DNA of 64,000 nucleotides from Daphnia pulex (Eukaryota > Arthropoda > Branchiopoda > Diplostraca > Daphniidae). Under the pieces are notes generated by a model. The model ran no database searches and was not told the origin of the DNA. It worked only from the letters and a program-made list of their open reading frames with translations. The DNA lies in assembly GCF_021134715.1 (NCBI RefSeq), contig NC_060023.1, positions 11,532,001 through 11,596,000 on the forward strand, in the 5' to 3' direction. A program made the translations under genes and the position numbers. Of the stretch, positions 55,476 through 64,000 are shown in pieces. Each line of letters opens with the position of its first letter. Position 1 is the stretch's first letter.

Positions 55476-56862
55476 ATGAACGAAGAAAATCTTGAGTGGG
55501 GTTGGAAGCCCATATTAATAGCTATGCGCTTCATCGGTTTTGATTTGAGAGATCCTTTAGTTTCTCCTAACAACAGTTGGTTTAATTTTTATTCTTTGCT
55601 ATGTCTTGTGTACACTGCATTTTGGCACGTATTCGATTGTGTCGACACCACAAAGTTTTTCATGAGGGTGGTGGACTCGGATCCTCCTTCGAACATATCA
55701 TTAGTCGTTATCACGAACGTTATGGTTGACACCTACAACAATGCGTTTCATTCCGTTGGAATCCAACTAACTGTTCATTTTATGGCTCGCTCTAATTGGA
55801 AGGAAATGTGGCAGGTTGTTCAGCGCATCGGAAGAAGATTCGATTTTAAATTCTATGTACATTTAAGGATAGTTTCATCATCAGCTGTAGTTGCCGTCAT
55901 AGTGATAGTAATAGAATTATAATTTTAAAAGTGCAATAATCAATTTATGTCACATTGTTATCAACAGGAACTATACCTTTTGGCATCAGGAATAGTTTAC
56001 ACTGCTTTAAGCCCTCATCTTACCTTTATCCTACATGGAAAACTCTTTGCATTAATTTTGGCGGAAATCTACAGAATTTGTGGATCCAGTTTGTTTATTG
56101 TTTGCGCCCTTAGTGCTTCAGATGTGTTTAGTCAACTGAAAAATGAAATTGATGAAGCAAGTCGGTATTTGAATCCTCCTGATGCTTCATCTATTCTTAA
56201 ATGGAAACATACTCACGCATTGGCTTGCGTGTACGTTGACTCGATTAACCGTTGCTTCGGACCAATTCTTCTGATCGACATTTGTTGCATCTTCCTGCGG
56301 ATGATTAATTCAGTTTTCCAAGTCTCTGTAGGATTAAACGTACACAAATCCAGGTCAAGCATTTATCATACCTTGTACTCATTAGAGCTTTTTTTCCAAT
56401 TTTGGATCGTTTGTATCGTCGCCAGCAGACTTCAAATAAAGGTATGCCGTATTTTTTTTAAATTAATTACTTATCCTAAATTAAATTTTATAGGCAACGA
56501 ATATTATACAAACAATCCGCAAGCTACCAACCGCAACTCTTGAGACACAACGACTGGTGAATGGAATAAATATTTTGTCAAAACGAAACATATGGTTTTG
56601 ATTTATTAATAATAATGTGTTTCTCAATTCTCCTTAGACAGGAACTCTTCTTATTCAGGTGCATCATTCTGCGCCTTCCATATCCGCGTATGGACTGGTA
56701 AAAATTAACCACAAACTTGTACTAAAGGTGACTAAATTAGGGTGTTACAAAGAAAAATTTCTGAATAGTATTTTGTTCCACATGCAGCTGATTGGTACAA
56801 CTTTTAGTTACTTCATTATAATCAATCAATTTTATTTACTGGAGGATCCATTACAACAATAG
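55476..56862 (+). CDS. gustatory-receptor-family chemoreceptor
   Basis: This is an insect-type seven-transmembrane Gr/Or superfamily protein, a ligand-gated channel of chemosensory cells. Exon 1 (55476 to about 55909) gives MNEENLEWGWKPILIAMRFI, then several hydrophobic segments. Exon 2 (55968-56441) carries membrane segments (YLLASGIVYTALSPHLTFI, LFALILAEIYRICGSSLFIV) and the intracellular loop (FSQLKNEIDEAS). Exon 3 starts at 56495 (ATNIIQTIRKLPTATLETQR). Exon 4 (about 56638-56727) gives SAPSISAYGLVKINHKLV, the usual position of the SA-GFF-type motif. Exon 5 (56788-56862) gives GTTFSYFIIINQF, a close variant of the C-terminal Gr signature TYhhhhhQF, then LLEDPLQQ-TAG. The short terminal exons are typical of Grs. 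The exon 3/4 join is the least certain: a GTGAAT donor after CGACTG is preferred. Confidence 0.8.
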
Positions 56863-57039
56863 ATAATGTATGTGCTTTTAAGTTTTAACTTCTTAGCATC
56901 ACTGTAACAATTACTTCACTGATGTGAATTAAAGCTGTTAGCTACTTGGTTTTTAAAAAGAAATTTTTATTTGCTTTTGTTTTCCCATGCTTATTTAGAT
57001 GCATGGGGAAAATCAAACTACCCCCCGTATTTTGATTCA

Positions 57040-57850: not shown

Positions 57851-58007
57851 CATTTTGACAAACACCTAGATGACAAACACACATAACAAATGTAAAGGTA
57901 CTTTCAAGTAACTACCTGTTTTTTTCAAAAAAATGCAATAATTTATTAATAGCCAATAATCGTTATAATCTTTTAACATTGTAGATTTCAACCTGCAGAC
58001 GGGCCGG

Positions 58008-58150
58008 CCAGTTTGCATATCCTTCAAGCTTGAAGGTCGAGGGAAACATTGTGTAAAACTGTCAATGCGGCGGTGTAGAGGTTGGGTGAGAACTGGACGT
58101 GTTTCATCATTATCATGCAGGTACAATAGCCGCAAGGCTCAGCCATTTGA
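58008..58150 (+). repeat. tandem upstream module, copy 1
   Basis: First of three diverged copies of a promoter-side unit of the Tyr/Thr-rich family. Shared landmarks are TTTGCATATCCTTCAAGCTTGA (read here in two parts), AAACTGTCAATGCGG, TGTAGAGGTTGGGTGAG, and ATAGCCGCAAGG. Copies 2 and 3 are at 58215-58395 and 59157-59345. No start codon or family exon follows this first copy, so it looks like an orphan. Confidence 0.75.
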
Positions 58151-58214
58151 TATTCATTTTGATTTTGGTTTTTGTAGACCCATCCCCATCAACGTCAACC
58201 TAAAGAAGGAAAGG

Positions 58215-58395
58215 CTAGTTTGCATTTCCTTCACTTTCGAAGGTCAAGGAGATCATTACGTAAAACTGTCAATGCGGTGGTGTAGAGGTTGGGTGAGGAC
58301 GACACGTGTAACATCATTATCAAGTAGGTAAAATAGCCGCAAGGTTTAAGATATGGGTCAGGGTGAGAAAAAGTCGTATAAAAGGAGAGAGAAAA
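58215..58395 (+). promoter_or_regulatory. tandem upstream module, copy 2, with TATA box
   Basis: Shares CTGTCAATGCGGTGGTGTAG and GGTTGGGTGAG with the other copies and adds GTCAGGGTGAGAAAAAGTCG followed by GTATAAAAGG at about 58376, a strong TATA box. A transcription start near 58405 and the ATG at 58497 would give a leader of about 90 nt. Confidence 0.65.
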
Positions 58396-58496
58396 GTCGA
58401 CAAGGATCAGTCGAACGAGTATCTCCGACACGGTAACAACTTCAGCGCACTATTGGTCACCAGCTGCATTCTTCATCGTATCATCAGTTCGCAATC

Positions 58497-58780
58497 ATGG
58501 GTAAATATTCTGTTACTTCTGTTATTTAGTATCAATTTCTATTGTTTTTAGTCAGTAATTTTTGAATATTAATGTTCAAATTATTTATTGTCTAGTAAAC
58601 TATGGCGTTGTTCTGCTGTTGGGTGTTGAATCGCTGACGGTTGGGTCGACCACTGGTGTACCGATGTCTCCTGGTCCTGTGTATGGTGGATATCAAAGCA
58701 CAACATTGCTGTCTTAATACTCATCATCAACCAATGCTGCTCCAGCTTACACCACCAAGGCTTCAGACAAGTTGCATTAA
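58497..58780 (+). pseudogene. Tyr/Thr-rich secreted protein family, copy A (early stop)
   Basis: A 4-nt first coding exon (ATGG, 58497-58500) is followed by GTAAAT. The acceptor TCTAG at 58595 opens exon 2, giving MVNYGVVLLLGVESLTVGST, a signal-peptide-like start, and TGVPMSPGPVYGGYQST. A TAA at 58715-58717 stops it after 41 residues, at the place where copy D has a Tyr codon (TCT-TAA here, TCT-TAC in D). The frame stays open after the stop and still reads family-like residues (NAAPAYTTKASDK) up to a TAA at about 58778. It is either a pseudogene or a truncated short secreted peptide. Confidence 0.6.
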
Positions 58781-58956
58781 AGGAGAGAAAAGCCTTTTCC
58801 GACACGACAACAACTTCCGCGCACAATTTGTCACCAACTGCCTTCTTCATCGTATAAAGCGGTAAATTTCAGTTTTCTACATGGAATTGTGTATCAACTC
58901 TCCTTTTTTAAATAATGTCTGTTGCATAATTATGTTCCTATAATTTATTGTATAGT

Positions 58957-59125
58957 AAACTGTGGCGTCGTGCTGCTGTTGGTTGTTGTCCTGAAATACT
59001 ACACCACCGAGGCTTCAAAGTATTACACTACAATTTATGCTGCTGCGAGATGCATCACTAAAGAGCCCGAGTACTACATCCTGATTCCATTCGTATTAAG
59101 CCACAACCATTTGGTATTAATTTGA
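58957..59125 (+). pseudogene. Tyr/Thr-rich family, copy B (5' end degraded)
   Basis: After a TATAG acceptor, the conserved exon-2 start (VNCGVVLLLVVVL) runs straight into repeat residues (KYYTTEASKYYTTIYAAARC, TKEPEYYI) and stops at a TGA at 59123-59125. The expected ATGG exon upstream is degraded (the region 58780-58862 resembles the leader of copies A and C but lacks an ATGG followed by a donor). It is probably non-functional. Confidence 0.6.
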
Positions 59126-59156
59126 TATTGTTTGTTGTATACCCACCCCCAGCAAC

Positions 59157-59345
59157 GTCCAATATGCATGTCCTTCACGCTTGAAGGTCGCGGAGATCAT
59201 TACGTAAATCTGTCAATGCGGTGGTGTAAGGTTGGGTGAGAACAGAAAGTGTTTGCTTTATTATCGAGCAAGTTTAATAGGGGCGTAAGGCTTAAGAGAG
59301 GGGTCAGGGTGAGAAAAAGTCGTATAAATGGCAAGAGAAAAGTCG
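59157..59345 (+). promoter_or_regulatory. tandem upstream module, copy 3, with TATA-like box
   Basis: Shares ATCTGTCAATGCGGTGGTGT, GGTCAGGGTGAGAAAAAGTC and GTATAAATGG (about 59321) with copy 2. It precedes copy C at the same spacing as copy 2 precedes copy A. Confidence 0.65.
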
Positions 59346-59442
59346 ATAGGGATCAGTCGAGTGAGTATCTCCATCACGGCAACAACTGCAGCCCACTATT
59401 TGTCACCAACTTCCTTCTTCATTGTACAACCAGTTCGCAATC

Positions 59443-60120
59443 ATGGGCAAAAATTCATCTTTATTTCGAGTCGTGAATCAATTTTGTCTTGTTTTCAGTT
59501 TATATTAGTAGTTATGAGTTTATATTCGATAATGTTCAAATCGTTTATATTGTTTAGTTCACTCTGGCGCCGTGCTGCTGTTTGGTGTCTTATCGTTGAA
59601 GGTTGGGTCGACCACGGGTTTACTGATGTCTTCTGGTCATCGTGGAGACTAAGCAACAGCAGCGAAAGAATACTACACCACGCCGCCGCCTTCGAAACAT
59701 CTACTTACAACACCGAGGCCCCCAAGTGCTACACCACCAAGGCTCAAGAGTTACGCTACAAATTACGCTGCCCCGAGTTACATCACCAAAGCGCCTGAGT
59801 ACTACATCCCCGAGGCACTACAACTGAGGCGGTGAAGTACTACGTAGCCTAGGCTTACAACACAGCAGCTGCTCCTTCATACTACGTTGAACTGAAATAC
59901 TACACCAAGGCTGCAGTTAACTACACCACAACCTACGCTACACCTAGCTACTATGACGAAGCCCCCAACTACTACACCGAAGAGGCCACATGTTACACAT
60001 CAACGTACAGTGCCCCAGTTTACTACACCGAGGAACCCAAGTATTACTCTGCTCCAAGCTACTACCAAACTGAGGCTCCTGTTTACCAAGGCCACCGAGT
60101 ATTATACTACAACCAAACGG
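59443..60120 (+). pseudogene. Tyr/Thr-rich family, copy C (stops and frameshifts)
   Basis: The ATGG micro-exon (59443-59446) is present, but the donor is GC instead of GT. Exon 2 begins at 59558 (HSGAVLLFGVLSLKVGSTTG), hits TAA after RGD, and then continues family residues across at least three frame changes (KEYYTTPPPSK; TYNTEAPKCYTTKAQE; SYATNYAAPSYITKAPEYY; TTEAVKYYVA). After another stop the last part reads well (AAAPSYYVELKYYTKAAVNY, TTTYATPSYYDEAPNYYTEE, EEPKYYSAPSYYQTEAPVY). It is clearly a decayed gene. Confidence 0.7.
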
Positions 60121-60226
60121 TAAATATTGTTTCAACATGGAGTTTTGTATCACTTAATTATTTTTTTCTCTTTGTTAATATGACATTTCATATTGAAAAT
60201 TGATGTTCATATTTTGTACCGTCTAG

Positions 60227-60987
60227 TTAACTATGGCGTCGTGCTGCTGTTGGTTGTATTATCCTTGATGGCTGGGTTGACCACTGGTGTACCGATGTCT
60301 CCTGGGTATGGCGGATACCAAACCGCAACGCCGGCGTCTTACTATACAACAACATACGCAGCAACCGGATACTACACCCCCAAGGCCCTAGAGTATTACA
60401 CCATAACTTATGATGTCCCGAACTTCTACACCAAAGCTTCGATGTTTAACTCAGCCCCGTGTTAAACCACCAAGGGAGCGGAGTACTACACCACCAAGGG
60501 AGCGGAGTACTACACCACCAAGGGAGCGGAGTACTACACCACCAAGGAAGCGGAGTACTACACCACCAAGGAAGCGGAGTACTACACCACCAAGGAAGCG
60601 GAGTACTACACCACCAAGGAAGCGGAGTACTACACCACCAAGGGAGCGGAGTACTACACCACCAAGGGAGCGGAGTACTACACCACCAAGGGAGCGGAGT
60701 ACTACACCACCAAGACAGCTGCATATTCGTACTACGTTAAACCGGAATGCTAAACCGAGGCTCCAGTTTTCTATACTACAGCCCGCGCTTCTCCCAGGTA
60801 CTATACCACCAAGGCAACTGAGTATTACACCACTTCTTATGCTGCTACCACCTACTACACCGAAGCTCCGAAGTTTTACTCTGTGCTGAGTTACCACACC
60901 ATTAAGGAAGCCGAACATTACACCACAAACGCTTCCGCAACTTACTACATGAAATTTCTAAATGCTAGACCCGAAATTTCTATTTGA
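60227..60987 (+). pseudogene. Tyr/Thr-rich family, copy D: long frame with two in-frame TAA codons
   Basis: After a TCTAG acceptor, exon 2 reads VNYGVVLLLVVLSLMAGLTT (signal peptide; the Met would come from an ATGG micro-exon that I do not find intact here), then GVPMSPGYGGYQTATPASYY, TTTYAATGYYTPKALEYYT and NFYTKASMFNSAPC. A TAA at 60463-60465 follows. The same frame continues through ten TTK(G/E)AEYY repeats to a second TAA at 60751-60753, then TEAPVFYTTARASPRYYTTK and onward to TGA at 60985-60987. There are no frameshifts over 253 codons. Both TAA codons replace the second Tyr of a YYT motif. I recall similar Tyr-rich secreted or cuticle-like proteins in Daphnia, unverified. It is a recent pseudogene, or a readthrough gene. 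Confidence 0.65.
60466..60714 (+). repeat. 24-bp tandem repeat (10 copies) encoding TTK(G/E)AEYY
   Basis: Ten units of ACCACCAAGGRAGCGGAGTACTAC, each 24 bp, are almost identical. The only variable site is the R: G in units 1-3, A in units 4-7 and G in units 8-10, giving Gly or Glu. An eleventh, diverged unit (AAGACAGCTGCATATTCG) follows. The near-identity implies very recent amplification or homogenisation. There are no spacers, so this is not a CRISPR array. Confidence 0.95.
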
Positions 60988-61507
60988 TTTTATTTAGATA
61001 TGTCGGTTTTCTTCATGGTCGTTGGTCATTGGGAATTAATTGTTGATCTTGATTGAGAAAATAAAATTTCTAATGCCGGTAATTCGTTTGTAAGACTTGG
61101 TAGTAACTTCAAGCCTGTCAACGTTGCGGCAGGTGTCTATTGGTGTTGGACTTCTCTAAGGCCAGTATCCTACGTTGTGATTTGTCTGTTATGTTTTGGA
61201 AGTGATTACTGCCTTAATCGCTCTGCATACGGATTTGTTTTAGTGGTTCGACGTGAAGTTTCAAGGGAAGTTACGAAAGAATCTTGTAACTGTTGATTTT
61301 TGCAAATCTTATATGTAAAAGGGAAGTGGTTGATCTTGGTATAAATGAAAGACTTTGAAGTTGAGGAAATTCCTAAACAAAACTTGGTATAAATTAAGAG
61401 ACAATGAACAAATAACTTTGAAAAGAATTGTGTTATATTGTCCCACCTCCACCCACAATTCCACCACATTTTACAGTCACATGCATACATACATACACTT
61501 AAGTTAA
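60988..61507. other. unassigned, copy D 3' flank
   Basis: No gene recognised. An AATAAA near 61060 could be the poly(A) signal of the copy D transcript. Confidence 0.4.
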
Positions 61508-61770
61508 CCCGTTGGCTGCCACGCCATACAACCCGTAGGTTGCACTCTACTACTCTACGCGCCACGTCTGAAGGATCCATGACCAAGTGGGACTTGCCAT
61601 TGCTGACAAGTCCGTGCTGACAAGGGGAGGACTAAGGTGCATTGCCTTTTAACAGGCTTGCCTTGCGGCAAAGTTTGGGCTTGGCGACTCCCCGACCCCG
61701 CGGCTTTTAAACCACGAGACCGAACAGCGCGGCCCGTGCAGTGGAGAACAAAGGTGTGGCAGCCAACGGG
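61508..61770. mobile_element. piggyBac-type MITE with TTAA target duplication
   Basis: A 263-bp element has terminal inverted repeats CCCGTTGGCTGCCACGCC (left) and its complement ending TGGCAGCCAACGGG (right), 18 bp with one mismatch. It is flanked on both sides by TTAA (61504-61507 and 61771-61774). CCC termini plus TTAA duplication are the hallmark of the piggyBac superfamily. It has no transposase and so is non-autonomous. The interior is GC-richer than the flanks. Confidence 0.9.
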
Positions 61771-62118
61771 TTAACTAACACTAACACAATAATACCAACA
61801 ATACGATTATCCAAGTTGATGACGAGTCTCGGTGTCGGTCGCGATTTCACCGAGTTTCGTTCGCACCAGGAGCAGGGGCAACGTCCGATGGAGACCGGTG
61901 ACGACTGTTAAAGATGGGAAAATCCATCTTCTCGACGTCTCCTCTGCATTACCTGAATCAAGACAAACAATTCTTATTAAGTGACATGCCAATAAAAGTT
62001 ACATAATAGTCACATAATACATATGGGATCATTGATCTGTTTTTTTTTTGCTCAAAACTTCAAAGGCGCGCTTTAAATTGCTTAAAATCTACCTAACAAT
62101 ATTGAGAACTGTACACAT

Positions 62119-62507
62119 AACAAAGCTCACTTGCTAGTCTAAAAAAAAAATTCCGGAAGTAGACCGGAAGTAACCACAGCGCCTCAACCATTGAGCTGTC
62201 ATCAAATTAAACCACATATTCGTGATCTCCATGAAATTTGGGGTCGATTAGGTGTGATTTAAACGAAATCCAAAATTTGGCCAAAATCGAGAATTTTCCT
62301 GAACTATAGTTCAGGAAAATTTTCGAAACCGGAAGTACGAAAACGTAAAAAATATAACATGAACTTTACCACAAATTTTACGAGGATCACGAATATGTGG
62401 TTCTTTTGCTCCTCAAATGAATATTTACTGAACTACAGACTGAAATGAGCAAACCGGAAGTAGAAAAAAAAAGCAAAATATCGAAAATTTAACAAGTGAG
62501 CTTTGTT
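62119..62507. mobile_element. 389-bp foldback / palindromic MITE-like element
   Basis: The ends AACAAAGCTCACTTG (62119-62133) and CAAGTGAGCTTTGTT (62493-62507) are perfect 15-bp inverted repeats. Internally the arms pair again at ACCACATATTCGTGATC (about 62210-62226) and its complement (about 62384-62401). The centre near 62292-62321 is a perfect 30-bp palindrome around CTATAG. GGAAGT motifs recur in both arms. It has no coding capacity. The family is not assigned. Confidence 0.8.
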
Positions 62508-63447
62508 GCTGGCATAGTAATCGTCAGTTATCACTAAATATTTCAAAAAAATAACTGCCGATAAATGTTAAAAGCCATGTGCAAAGTTTCTGAAACTGAC
62601 TGTTTTGACAGCTTTAAATTTTCAAAAAGCCATCTAGCGTTGGAAAAAAGAAACTTCAATGTTAAACTTCGTTGGCGCGTAAGAAAGGCCTGATTTTGGA
62701 AACTACTACACAGACAGAGTCTAACTCAACTAGACTATTGGTAGATAACCTACGAAAATAAATCAAATGTTGGGTACCTGGGCATAATCCCGTGGTGAAT
62801 GATGACAGGTGTGTCACAGCGGGCGGAAGCGAACACTGAAGTTATTTAATTCGCCAATGAAGCACAGGAAGCAGCGTACGTGGTGAAGATAAGGACCCGA
62901 ACGTTGGTAGAAGTCCTTCTTCTGTCATGGACAAAAACCAGCGCTGGTTCAGGACTCACGATTCCATGAAGAAACTGCGTTGTAGATTGAACTGGCGGCC
63001 GACTCGCGATCTCAGAGGACGTCATAAATAGTTCTGTAAAAAGGAGTTGGGAATTAAAAGGAAGCTTAAACAAAATTAACTCATAGTAGCATGGTAAAAG
63101 GTGATAATGATGTTTACCTTTATCATTTGGGTGACAAATTCAGTAAGGCATTTGACTTTGATCAAGCAGATCTGGAAATGTACTAAATGCACTCACACTC
63201 TTCATGTACATTCACTGAAACTGGAACTGTAATTAGCAATTGGATAAGGAAAATTATCTATATTATTTACAAATTTACATATGAAAAACAAAACTCTACC
63301 TATCTCTCAGCTGGGTTGCCTTCTGAGCGGCTGTAGAAACAGTTGTACACTCGACAAACATTCTGACACAGGTTACACTTGCAAGATTCAGAAAAGATCC
63401 ATGCTTTCATGCACAAAAACTTTTGTCTAATTCCACTGTATGCAGGC
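62508..63447. other. no gene recognised
   Basis: Sequence of mixed composition. A minus-strand frame at 62846-63073 lacks any family signal. The patch 62820-63030 is GC-richer and could be an exon of an unrecognised gene, but no splice-consistent model emerged. Confidence 0.4.
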
Positions 63448-64000
63448 TTCAAATATGAATTTCAGGCTTTTGACAGCATAAGGATCTAATGGATGGAAAG
63501 CTACTTTAGCACTAAGTCAACTTAATTGTTGGACTGACAGACTGACTTTCTAGAATTTGAAGAAATGGATGTAATAGATAAAATAATAAGGAAAATAGGT
63601 CAAGATAAACCTACACCATAAACCTACAAACGAAGTTCAATTGAGTATTCGTAATCACAAAAGGGTTCTATTAACGGTGGAGTTCTTCTGTCAGAAACCC
63701 TTATTTACTGACCGCTAGATGCCACTGTCTTCAGTTGATTTTGTCATACAGCCTGCTTCATGAAACATGGCGAAACAAATTGTTGCTAACTTGCTATTTA
63801 CTTATTTTTCTGTGAATTCTCAATTGAACTTCGTTTGTGTAAGTTTATCTTGACCTAGTTTCCTTATTTTTTTATCTATTACATCCATTTCTTCAAATTC
63901 TAGAAAGTCAGTCCGTCATTCCAACAAGTTGACTTAGTGCTCAGTCACTTTCCATCCATTAGATCCTTATGCTGTCAAAAGCCTGAAATTCATATTTGAA
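63448..64000. repeat. large inverted repeat (arms about 190-200 bp), cut by the window end
   Basis: The left arm (63448 to about 63650) starts TTCAAATATGAATTTCAGGC and reappears inverted in the right arm (about 63813-64000), which ends CTGAAATTCATATTTGAA at the last base. The arms differ by scattered substitutions and one indel of about 13 bp near 63612-63628. The loop of about 160 bp contains no coding signal. The pairing reaches the window edge, so the true arm may be longer. Confidence 0.85.

Follow-up and report, generated by a model that had tools for sequence, protein, structure and literature searches.

Copies A to D and the palindrome that holds them

The window analysed here is a stretch of 64,000 nucleotides from Daphnia pulex (C7:11532001-11596000), and the genome analysed comprises 133.2 Mb in 13 contigs. 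The first-pass annotation had described four gene copies with a common signal-peptide exon near the end of the window, and we recover all four, with starts at 58596 (A), 58956 (B), 59558 (C) and 60227 (D). All four sit within the left arm of a palindrome, the innermost part of which is visible inside the window. The palindrome was invisible to the earlier reader because it extends past the window end. The features of the locus are as follows.

57973..63650, + strand: left arm of the palindrome, carrying copies A to D
58377..58411, + strand: predicted core promoter of copy A (TATAAAA at 58377-58383 and a TCAGT initiator at 58407-58411, spaced by about 30 bp; assigned by eye)
58497..58500, + strand: copy A exon 1 (ATGG/GTAAAT)
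58596..58717, + strand: copy A exon 2, signal peptide and then TAA at 58715-58717; pseudogene
58956..59125, + strand: remnant of copy B exon 2, closing with TGA at 59123-59125
59443..59446, + strand: copy C exon 1 (ATGG/GCAAAA)
59558..60119, + strand: copy C exon 2, TAA at 59650-59652; pseudogene
60120..60226, + strand: copy D intron, abutting the coding tail of copy C directly
60227..60987, + strand: copy D exon 2, TAA at 60463-60465 and 60751-60753; pseudogene
60466..60714, + strand: 24-bp minisatellite within copy D, 10.4 units with 99% matches
61191..63650, + strand: inner arm by the palindrome centre, about 93% identical at loci L017 and L023
63651..63813, no strand: spacer at the palindrome centre, about 160 bp
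63814 to past the window end: right arm of the palindrome, reaching C7:11601474 (the equivalent of 69474)

Genes of the family consist of an ATGG exon 1, an intron of about 100 bp and an exon 2 with an MVNYG..VLLL signal peptide. Copies A and C conform to this layout, with a variant form of the signal peptide in C, and by eye both have a TATA box and a TCAGT initiator, the arthropod initiator consensus. Exon 2 alone was found for copies B and D: a search within 220 bp gave no exon 1 for B, and no ATGG exon 1 was found when looked for at D. The TAA that closes copy A had been placed correctly at 58715-58717, and the same truncated reading is present at L011 and L032. All stops had been said to hit Tyr codons, which fails for copy C, where the first stop (TAA 59650-59652) corresponds to Gln in L011, L013 and L015; downstream of it the Tyr-rich reading shifts frame. 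The fusion of the C coding tail directly to the D intron leaves copy D without a start codon of its own, and the joint is inherited, as an identical joint recurs in L011, L013 and L015. We considered and rejected a spliced C-D fusion: traced by hand, the Tyr frame of C across the donor at 60120 into 60227 meets an immediate stop, and copy D can thus not be rescued as a later exon. None of the four copies reaches the family C-terminus (APKY or KYY) in frame. They combine disabling lesions, lost constraint and retained introns, as duplicated (unprocessed) pseudogenes do.

The palindrome arms are 99.84% identical over 5475 bp (C7 11589973-11595447 compared with 11596001-11601474) and, in their inner part, 98.7% identical over 2204 bp (C7 11593447-11595650 compared with 11595814-11598000). 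An alignment of 988 bases around copy D with its right-arm twin shows two mismatches, both of which fall within the 24-bp array, and each arm carries both TAA codons. Positions 61850-63660 have at least 40 scored matching places (726 candidates). The arm also contains a short element (61502-61776) with 24-nt inverted ends, 96% complementary and including TTAA, which has the appearance of a non-autonomous piggyBac-type insertion. Upstream of the gene array lies a multi-exon gene with membrane-like stretches (55497-56870). It appears chemoreceptor-like by eye only, and a 141-aa piece of it gave no Pfam match above the cut-off.

The intact Tyr/Thr-rich family and the stops of copy D

A protein search of the genome with the family returned at least 150 scored matches among 971 candidates. 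Intact genes were sought at nine loci chosen for long open frames. Ten open genes, encoding 305-548 aa, have an ATGG exon 1 located 112-126 bp upstream of exon 2, a signal peptide of the form MVNYGVVLLLGVVSLMAGS(T/A)TG, repeats of the YYTTKAPEYY or YYTEAPKYY type and a C-terminus that reads APKY (seven of ten genes) or KYY (three of ten). The intact proteins are 26% Tyr and 21% Thr, and their Cys share rounds to 0.000; from this composition we infer a secreted structural role. An intact member had no Pfam match at E ≤ 1. Pairwise dN/dS values of 0.04-0.27 (44 informative of 45 pairs, just 36 of the pairs being distinct because two genes are identical) indicate purifying selection on the intact proteins. 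L033 (C1:4612801-4617400) carries a head-to-head pair of intact 347-aa genes whose coding sequences are identical, one of just two head-to-head pairs among 44.

In a protein-database search, 171 proteins scored at E ≤ 0.001 among 7977 scored candidates. The names among the 120 matches listed are mostly from D. pulex, with some from D. pulicaria and D. magna and some unnamed records; also among the matches listed is one Mitosporidium daphniae record, perhaps host contamination. The closest known counterparts are uncharacterised Tyr-rich D. pulex proteins (DAPPUDRAFT_234547, DAPPUDRAFT_269666 and others, one of them named mucin-12-like), which share the family's repeats and, in some of those examined, the signal peptide of the window copies. 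Unlike these database entries, which are predicted open genes (several marked LOW QUALITY), the window copies are broken. A literature search over titles and abstract openings, with subscription papers mostly outside its reach, returned no account of the Tyr-rich family or of Daphnia palindromes.

The dN/dS comparison proposed in the first-pass annotation separates copy D from the intact pairs and places it near neutrality. Over the aligned part of the exon, the ratios against L011, L013 and L015 are 2.05 (239 codons), 1.42 (231 codons) and 0.74 (182 codons), respectively. Outside the 24-bp array, pN/pS is 1.06 (157 codons), 0.88 (156 codons) and 0.60 (99 codons) against the same three loci, on small counts of 3-15 synonymous changes. 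Fisher tests of synonymous to non-synonymous counts in copy D against four chosen intact pairs yielded p = 1.4e-5, 4e-8, 0.0025 and 0.024, with counts that were rounded and include the array, whose homogenisation may distort them. Copy D evolves nearly neutrally. Part of the history of its lineage may have been under constraint, since the frame is long, has few lesions beyond the stops and shows a pN/pS of 0.60 against L015.

As first described, the frame of copy D runs for 253 codons from 60229 to a TGA at 60985-60987 (TGA included), and its two internal stops are both TAA, in the contexts CCGTGT-TAA-ACCACC (site 1, 60463-60465) and GAATGC-TAA-ACCGAG (site 2, 60751-60753). The statement that copy D has no frameshift breaks down at the 3' end: compared with L011, a base is absent after 60951, which puts the in-frame end of L011 (MKIPKC and a TAG) out of frame in D. 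We compared the two sites using best local alignments at 31 loci; the gene is repetitive, and site correspondence is therefore uncertain at the weaker loci. Site 1 is TAA in 4 of 31 loci (two on C7 and one each on C11 and C4), preceded by TGT in the window and L011, by GGT in L013 and by AGT in L015. Another 12 of the 31 loci read AG(T/C)-TAC-ACC, a Ser-Tyr-Thr unit, and the original description of this site as the second Tyr of a YYT unit is thus probably wrong. Two loci, L041 and L042, have CAA, and the remaining 13 have other codons or align weakly. The CAA of L041 and L042 (C7:11.38 and 11.32 Mb) could be an independent mutation of the Tyr codon or a mutation that removed the stop. For site 2, 12 of the 31 loci align at a score of at least 80, and the 19 weaker ones were set aside. 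TAA is found in six (four on C7 and one each on C11 and C1), TAG in two and TAC in four; the codon ahead of the TAA is TGC in three cases, GAC and TAC in one each, and a gap in the last.

Stops at Tyr are to be expected in this family, because Tyr codons account for 73.5-76.4% of the one-step routes to a stop (ten intact genes, transition weights 1 to 4). The chance that three of three stops fall at Tyr is 0.40-0.45, and the chance that two of two are TAA at Tyr is 0.15. The positions of these stops are statistically unremarkable.

Programmed readthrough, with TGY-TAA-ACC read as an amino acid and copy D giving a full-length protein, had been held worth testing, and it accords with a frame that is open between the stops, with neighbouring triplets common to both and with a TAA that is kept at four loci (site 1) and six loci (site 2). 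We consider it extremely improbable: copy D has no first exon, its pN/pS is near-neutral, the context differs among loci with the same TAA, and both TAAs coexist with further breaks in L011 (a TGA within the signal peptide) and L013 (a 4-base insertion and a TAA). Neither a conserved context nor purifying selection downstream, measured here over the whole exon, is found. The TGY codons themselves look like decay, since the ten intact genes are nearly Cys-free. Most simply, by parsimony, the TAA at each site predates the Cys codon ahead of it, and the matching contexts of the two D stops are a coincidence; a context that arose later than the stops is no readthrough signal. Gene conversion that copied one D TAA onto the other site would suit two sites in similar repeat units with common triplets, but the two stops are distributed differently over the loci, and one was therefore probably not copied from the other. 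L017, L023 and L039 have TAA at site 2 and not at site 1 (L023 aligns weakly at site 1, with a score of 64), and the histories of the preceding codons differ, being Ser-type (AGT) at site 1 and Tyr-type (TAC) at site 2. Such copying is very unlikely. The view of the D stops as simple pseudogenisation stands, and its 'recent' date does not, because the same TAAs occur at four and six loci, respectively. The stops of copy D are real but old, inherited lesions of a dead gene.

Related palindromes across the genome

The 150 scored family matches form 95 clusters over 11 contigs. For 83 of them, a match of equal score (to within 1.6 bits) lies on the opposite strand no more than 15 kb away, compared with six that have a same-strand partner, and 42 of 44 pairs are arranged tail-to-tail (a few matches fall in two pairs). 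At nine other places, defined by adjoining or overlapping 10-kb pairs, we find eight palindromes and one single-armed locus, L011. The main arm blocks of the eight palindromes are 95.5-99.96% identical, and one outer block is 97.4% identical. The longest spacer measures 6.3 kb (L021/L022), and none is resolved at L019. L029 and L030 are palindromes as well, with arm identities of 95.4% and 99.0%. L011 (C7:11513642-11519669) is a relative located 76 kb upstream of the window copy, whose homology ends near the centre; no second arm was found for L011/L012. Three equal-scoring matches on C11 (1985012, 2064589 and 2145076) lie about 80 kb apart, which suggests a large tandem segmental duplication.

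The arm centres are homologous at L015, L017, L019, L023, L025 and L027, and other palindrome groups have sequence in common across many contigs. Homologous centres and common sequence point to a single ancestral palindrome. For seven of nine palindromes, giving 21 locus pairs, we aligned both arms over their inner 3.3-3.9 kb. Between the window locus and L013/L014, 87 differences are common to both arms, none is arm-specific and five affect one arm; the two loci are 94% identical over 4930 bp inside the arms and 76-88% identical beyond them (gaps counted, some arm sequence included). Over the 21 pairs, 63% to over 99% of the variable columns are alike in both arms, with 0-20 arm-specific sites per pair. 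The lowest share is found for L025 and L027, where 209 of 333 columns are alike, 20 are arm-specific and 104 concern one arm. The two arms of a locus thus resemble each other more than they resemble those at other loci, the pattern of concertedly evolving palindromes; that the palindrome is ancestral is itself deduced from the centres. Locus differences are mostly common to both arms, which, granted an ancestral palindrome, suggests that the likeness of the arms results from arm-to-arm gene conversion and not from a new inverted duplication at every locus. New palindrome formation at each locus would produce the same arm pattern, and the shared centres are the sole argument against it.

In PMC7953838, arm-to-arm gene conversion in palindromes is described for the primate Y chromosome, Adineta vaga and Folsomia candida, and D. 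pulex is one of three species that could not be screened for palindromes, annotation lacking. The D. pulex arms resemble those palindromes in being far more alike within than between loci. They differ in that they are many and short, are confined to one gene family and lie scattered across 11 contigs or more; the genes carried in the window's palindrome, moreover, are dead.

It is highly improbable that the palindromes are assembly artefacts, such as hairpin adapters missed in long reads, and the D stops sequencing errors. Missed adapters can create palindromes in principle, and the spacer is unresolved at L019, L029 and L030, but arm differences reach 4.6%, at six other loci the arms flank a locus-specific spacer or meet at homologous centres, and the TAAs recur elsewhere in the genome. 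Moreover, the window contains no other separated inverted repeat of at least 150 bp at E ≤ 1e-10. A different proposal concerns how the palindromes spread and leaves the pseudogene verdict untouched: each could be a transposable element with very long inverted ends and Tyr-rich genes as cargo. Dispersal over 11 contigs, the common centre and the tail-to-tail arrangement of nearly all pairs (42 of 44) are in line with this, and three of six palindromes (the window's, L013 and L019) end within about 45 bp of one promoter motif. Foldback-type transposons likewise combine long inverted arms, internal tandem repeats and genomic dispersal. Unlike them, the D. pulex palindromes show no common end sequence, target-site duplication or transposase at the few loci examined. 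The six palindrome ends differ in sequence and have no matching direct repeat by eye, no target-site duplication is visible where the unit common to the window locus and L013/L014 ends, and some sequence that flanks the arm at one locus is part of an arm elsewhere. Ten open reading frames from the window arm, the L021/L022 spacer and the L030 centre returned no Pfam transposase, one match to a DUF being far below the cut-off. An element of this kind is unlikely. Of the four arms at two further loci (C10:13.63 Mb and C2:1.21 Mb), one on C2 ends abruptly and the other three extend beyond the stretch analysed.

As a rather unlikely proposal, the Tyr-rich genes may ride a distinct class of mobile palindromic units of about 9-19 kb that derive from one ancestral palindrome and have spread to some 40 or more places in D. 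pulex, each being rewritten by arm-to-arm conversion. If true, dead genes would be propagated and homogenised as faithfully as live ones.

Interpretation of the locus

Copies A to D look like dead members of a secreted Tyr/Thr-rich repeat-protein family in Daphnia, pseudogenes that result from ordinary decay and not from a new mode of decoding. We favour, at a probability of roughly 0.93, the reading that they are dead family copies in a palindrome arm, with a headless copy D whose TAAs are inherited nonsense changes at Tyr codons and with lesions that conversion between the arms retains. It draws on the missing exon 1 of copy D, the stops shared among loci and present in both arms, the near-neutral pN/pS, the palindrome and the locus-specific likeness of its arms. 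Joining of the C coding tail to the D intron would have made copy D headless. Each of its TAAs probably arose through one nonsense mutation of a Tyr codon, the type with the most one-step routes to a stop, before the copy spread to other loci, which would have inherited them. The in-frame 24-bp minisatellite would then have extended a frame that still looked open, and arm-to-arm gene conversion may retain the lesions in both arms.

With regard to the first-pass annotation, the four copies, the D frame and the A stop were described correctly, and the rule that every stop hits Tyr and the absence of frameshifts were not. Its interpretation survives as to pseudogenisation and is not borne out as to recency or readthrough. 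Gene conversion, which it had offered as a possibility for the two TAA sites, seems to be at work between the palindrome arms instead.

A tempting but false case of readthrough is thereby removed. Codon make-up can make decay resemble a pattern: in a gene whose product is one-quarter Tyr, most of the changes that can create a stop fall at Tyr codons. Of these findings, the palindrome family most deserves follow-up. Its related inverted pairs, present by the dozen in a single sequenced animal, could serve to measure gene conversion off the sex chromosomes.
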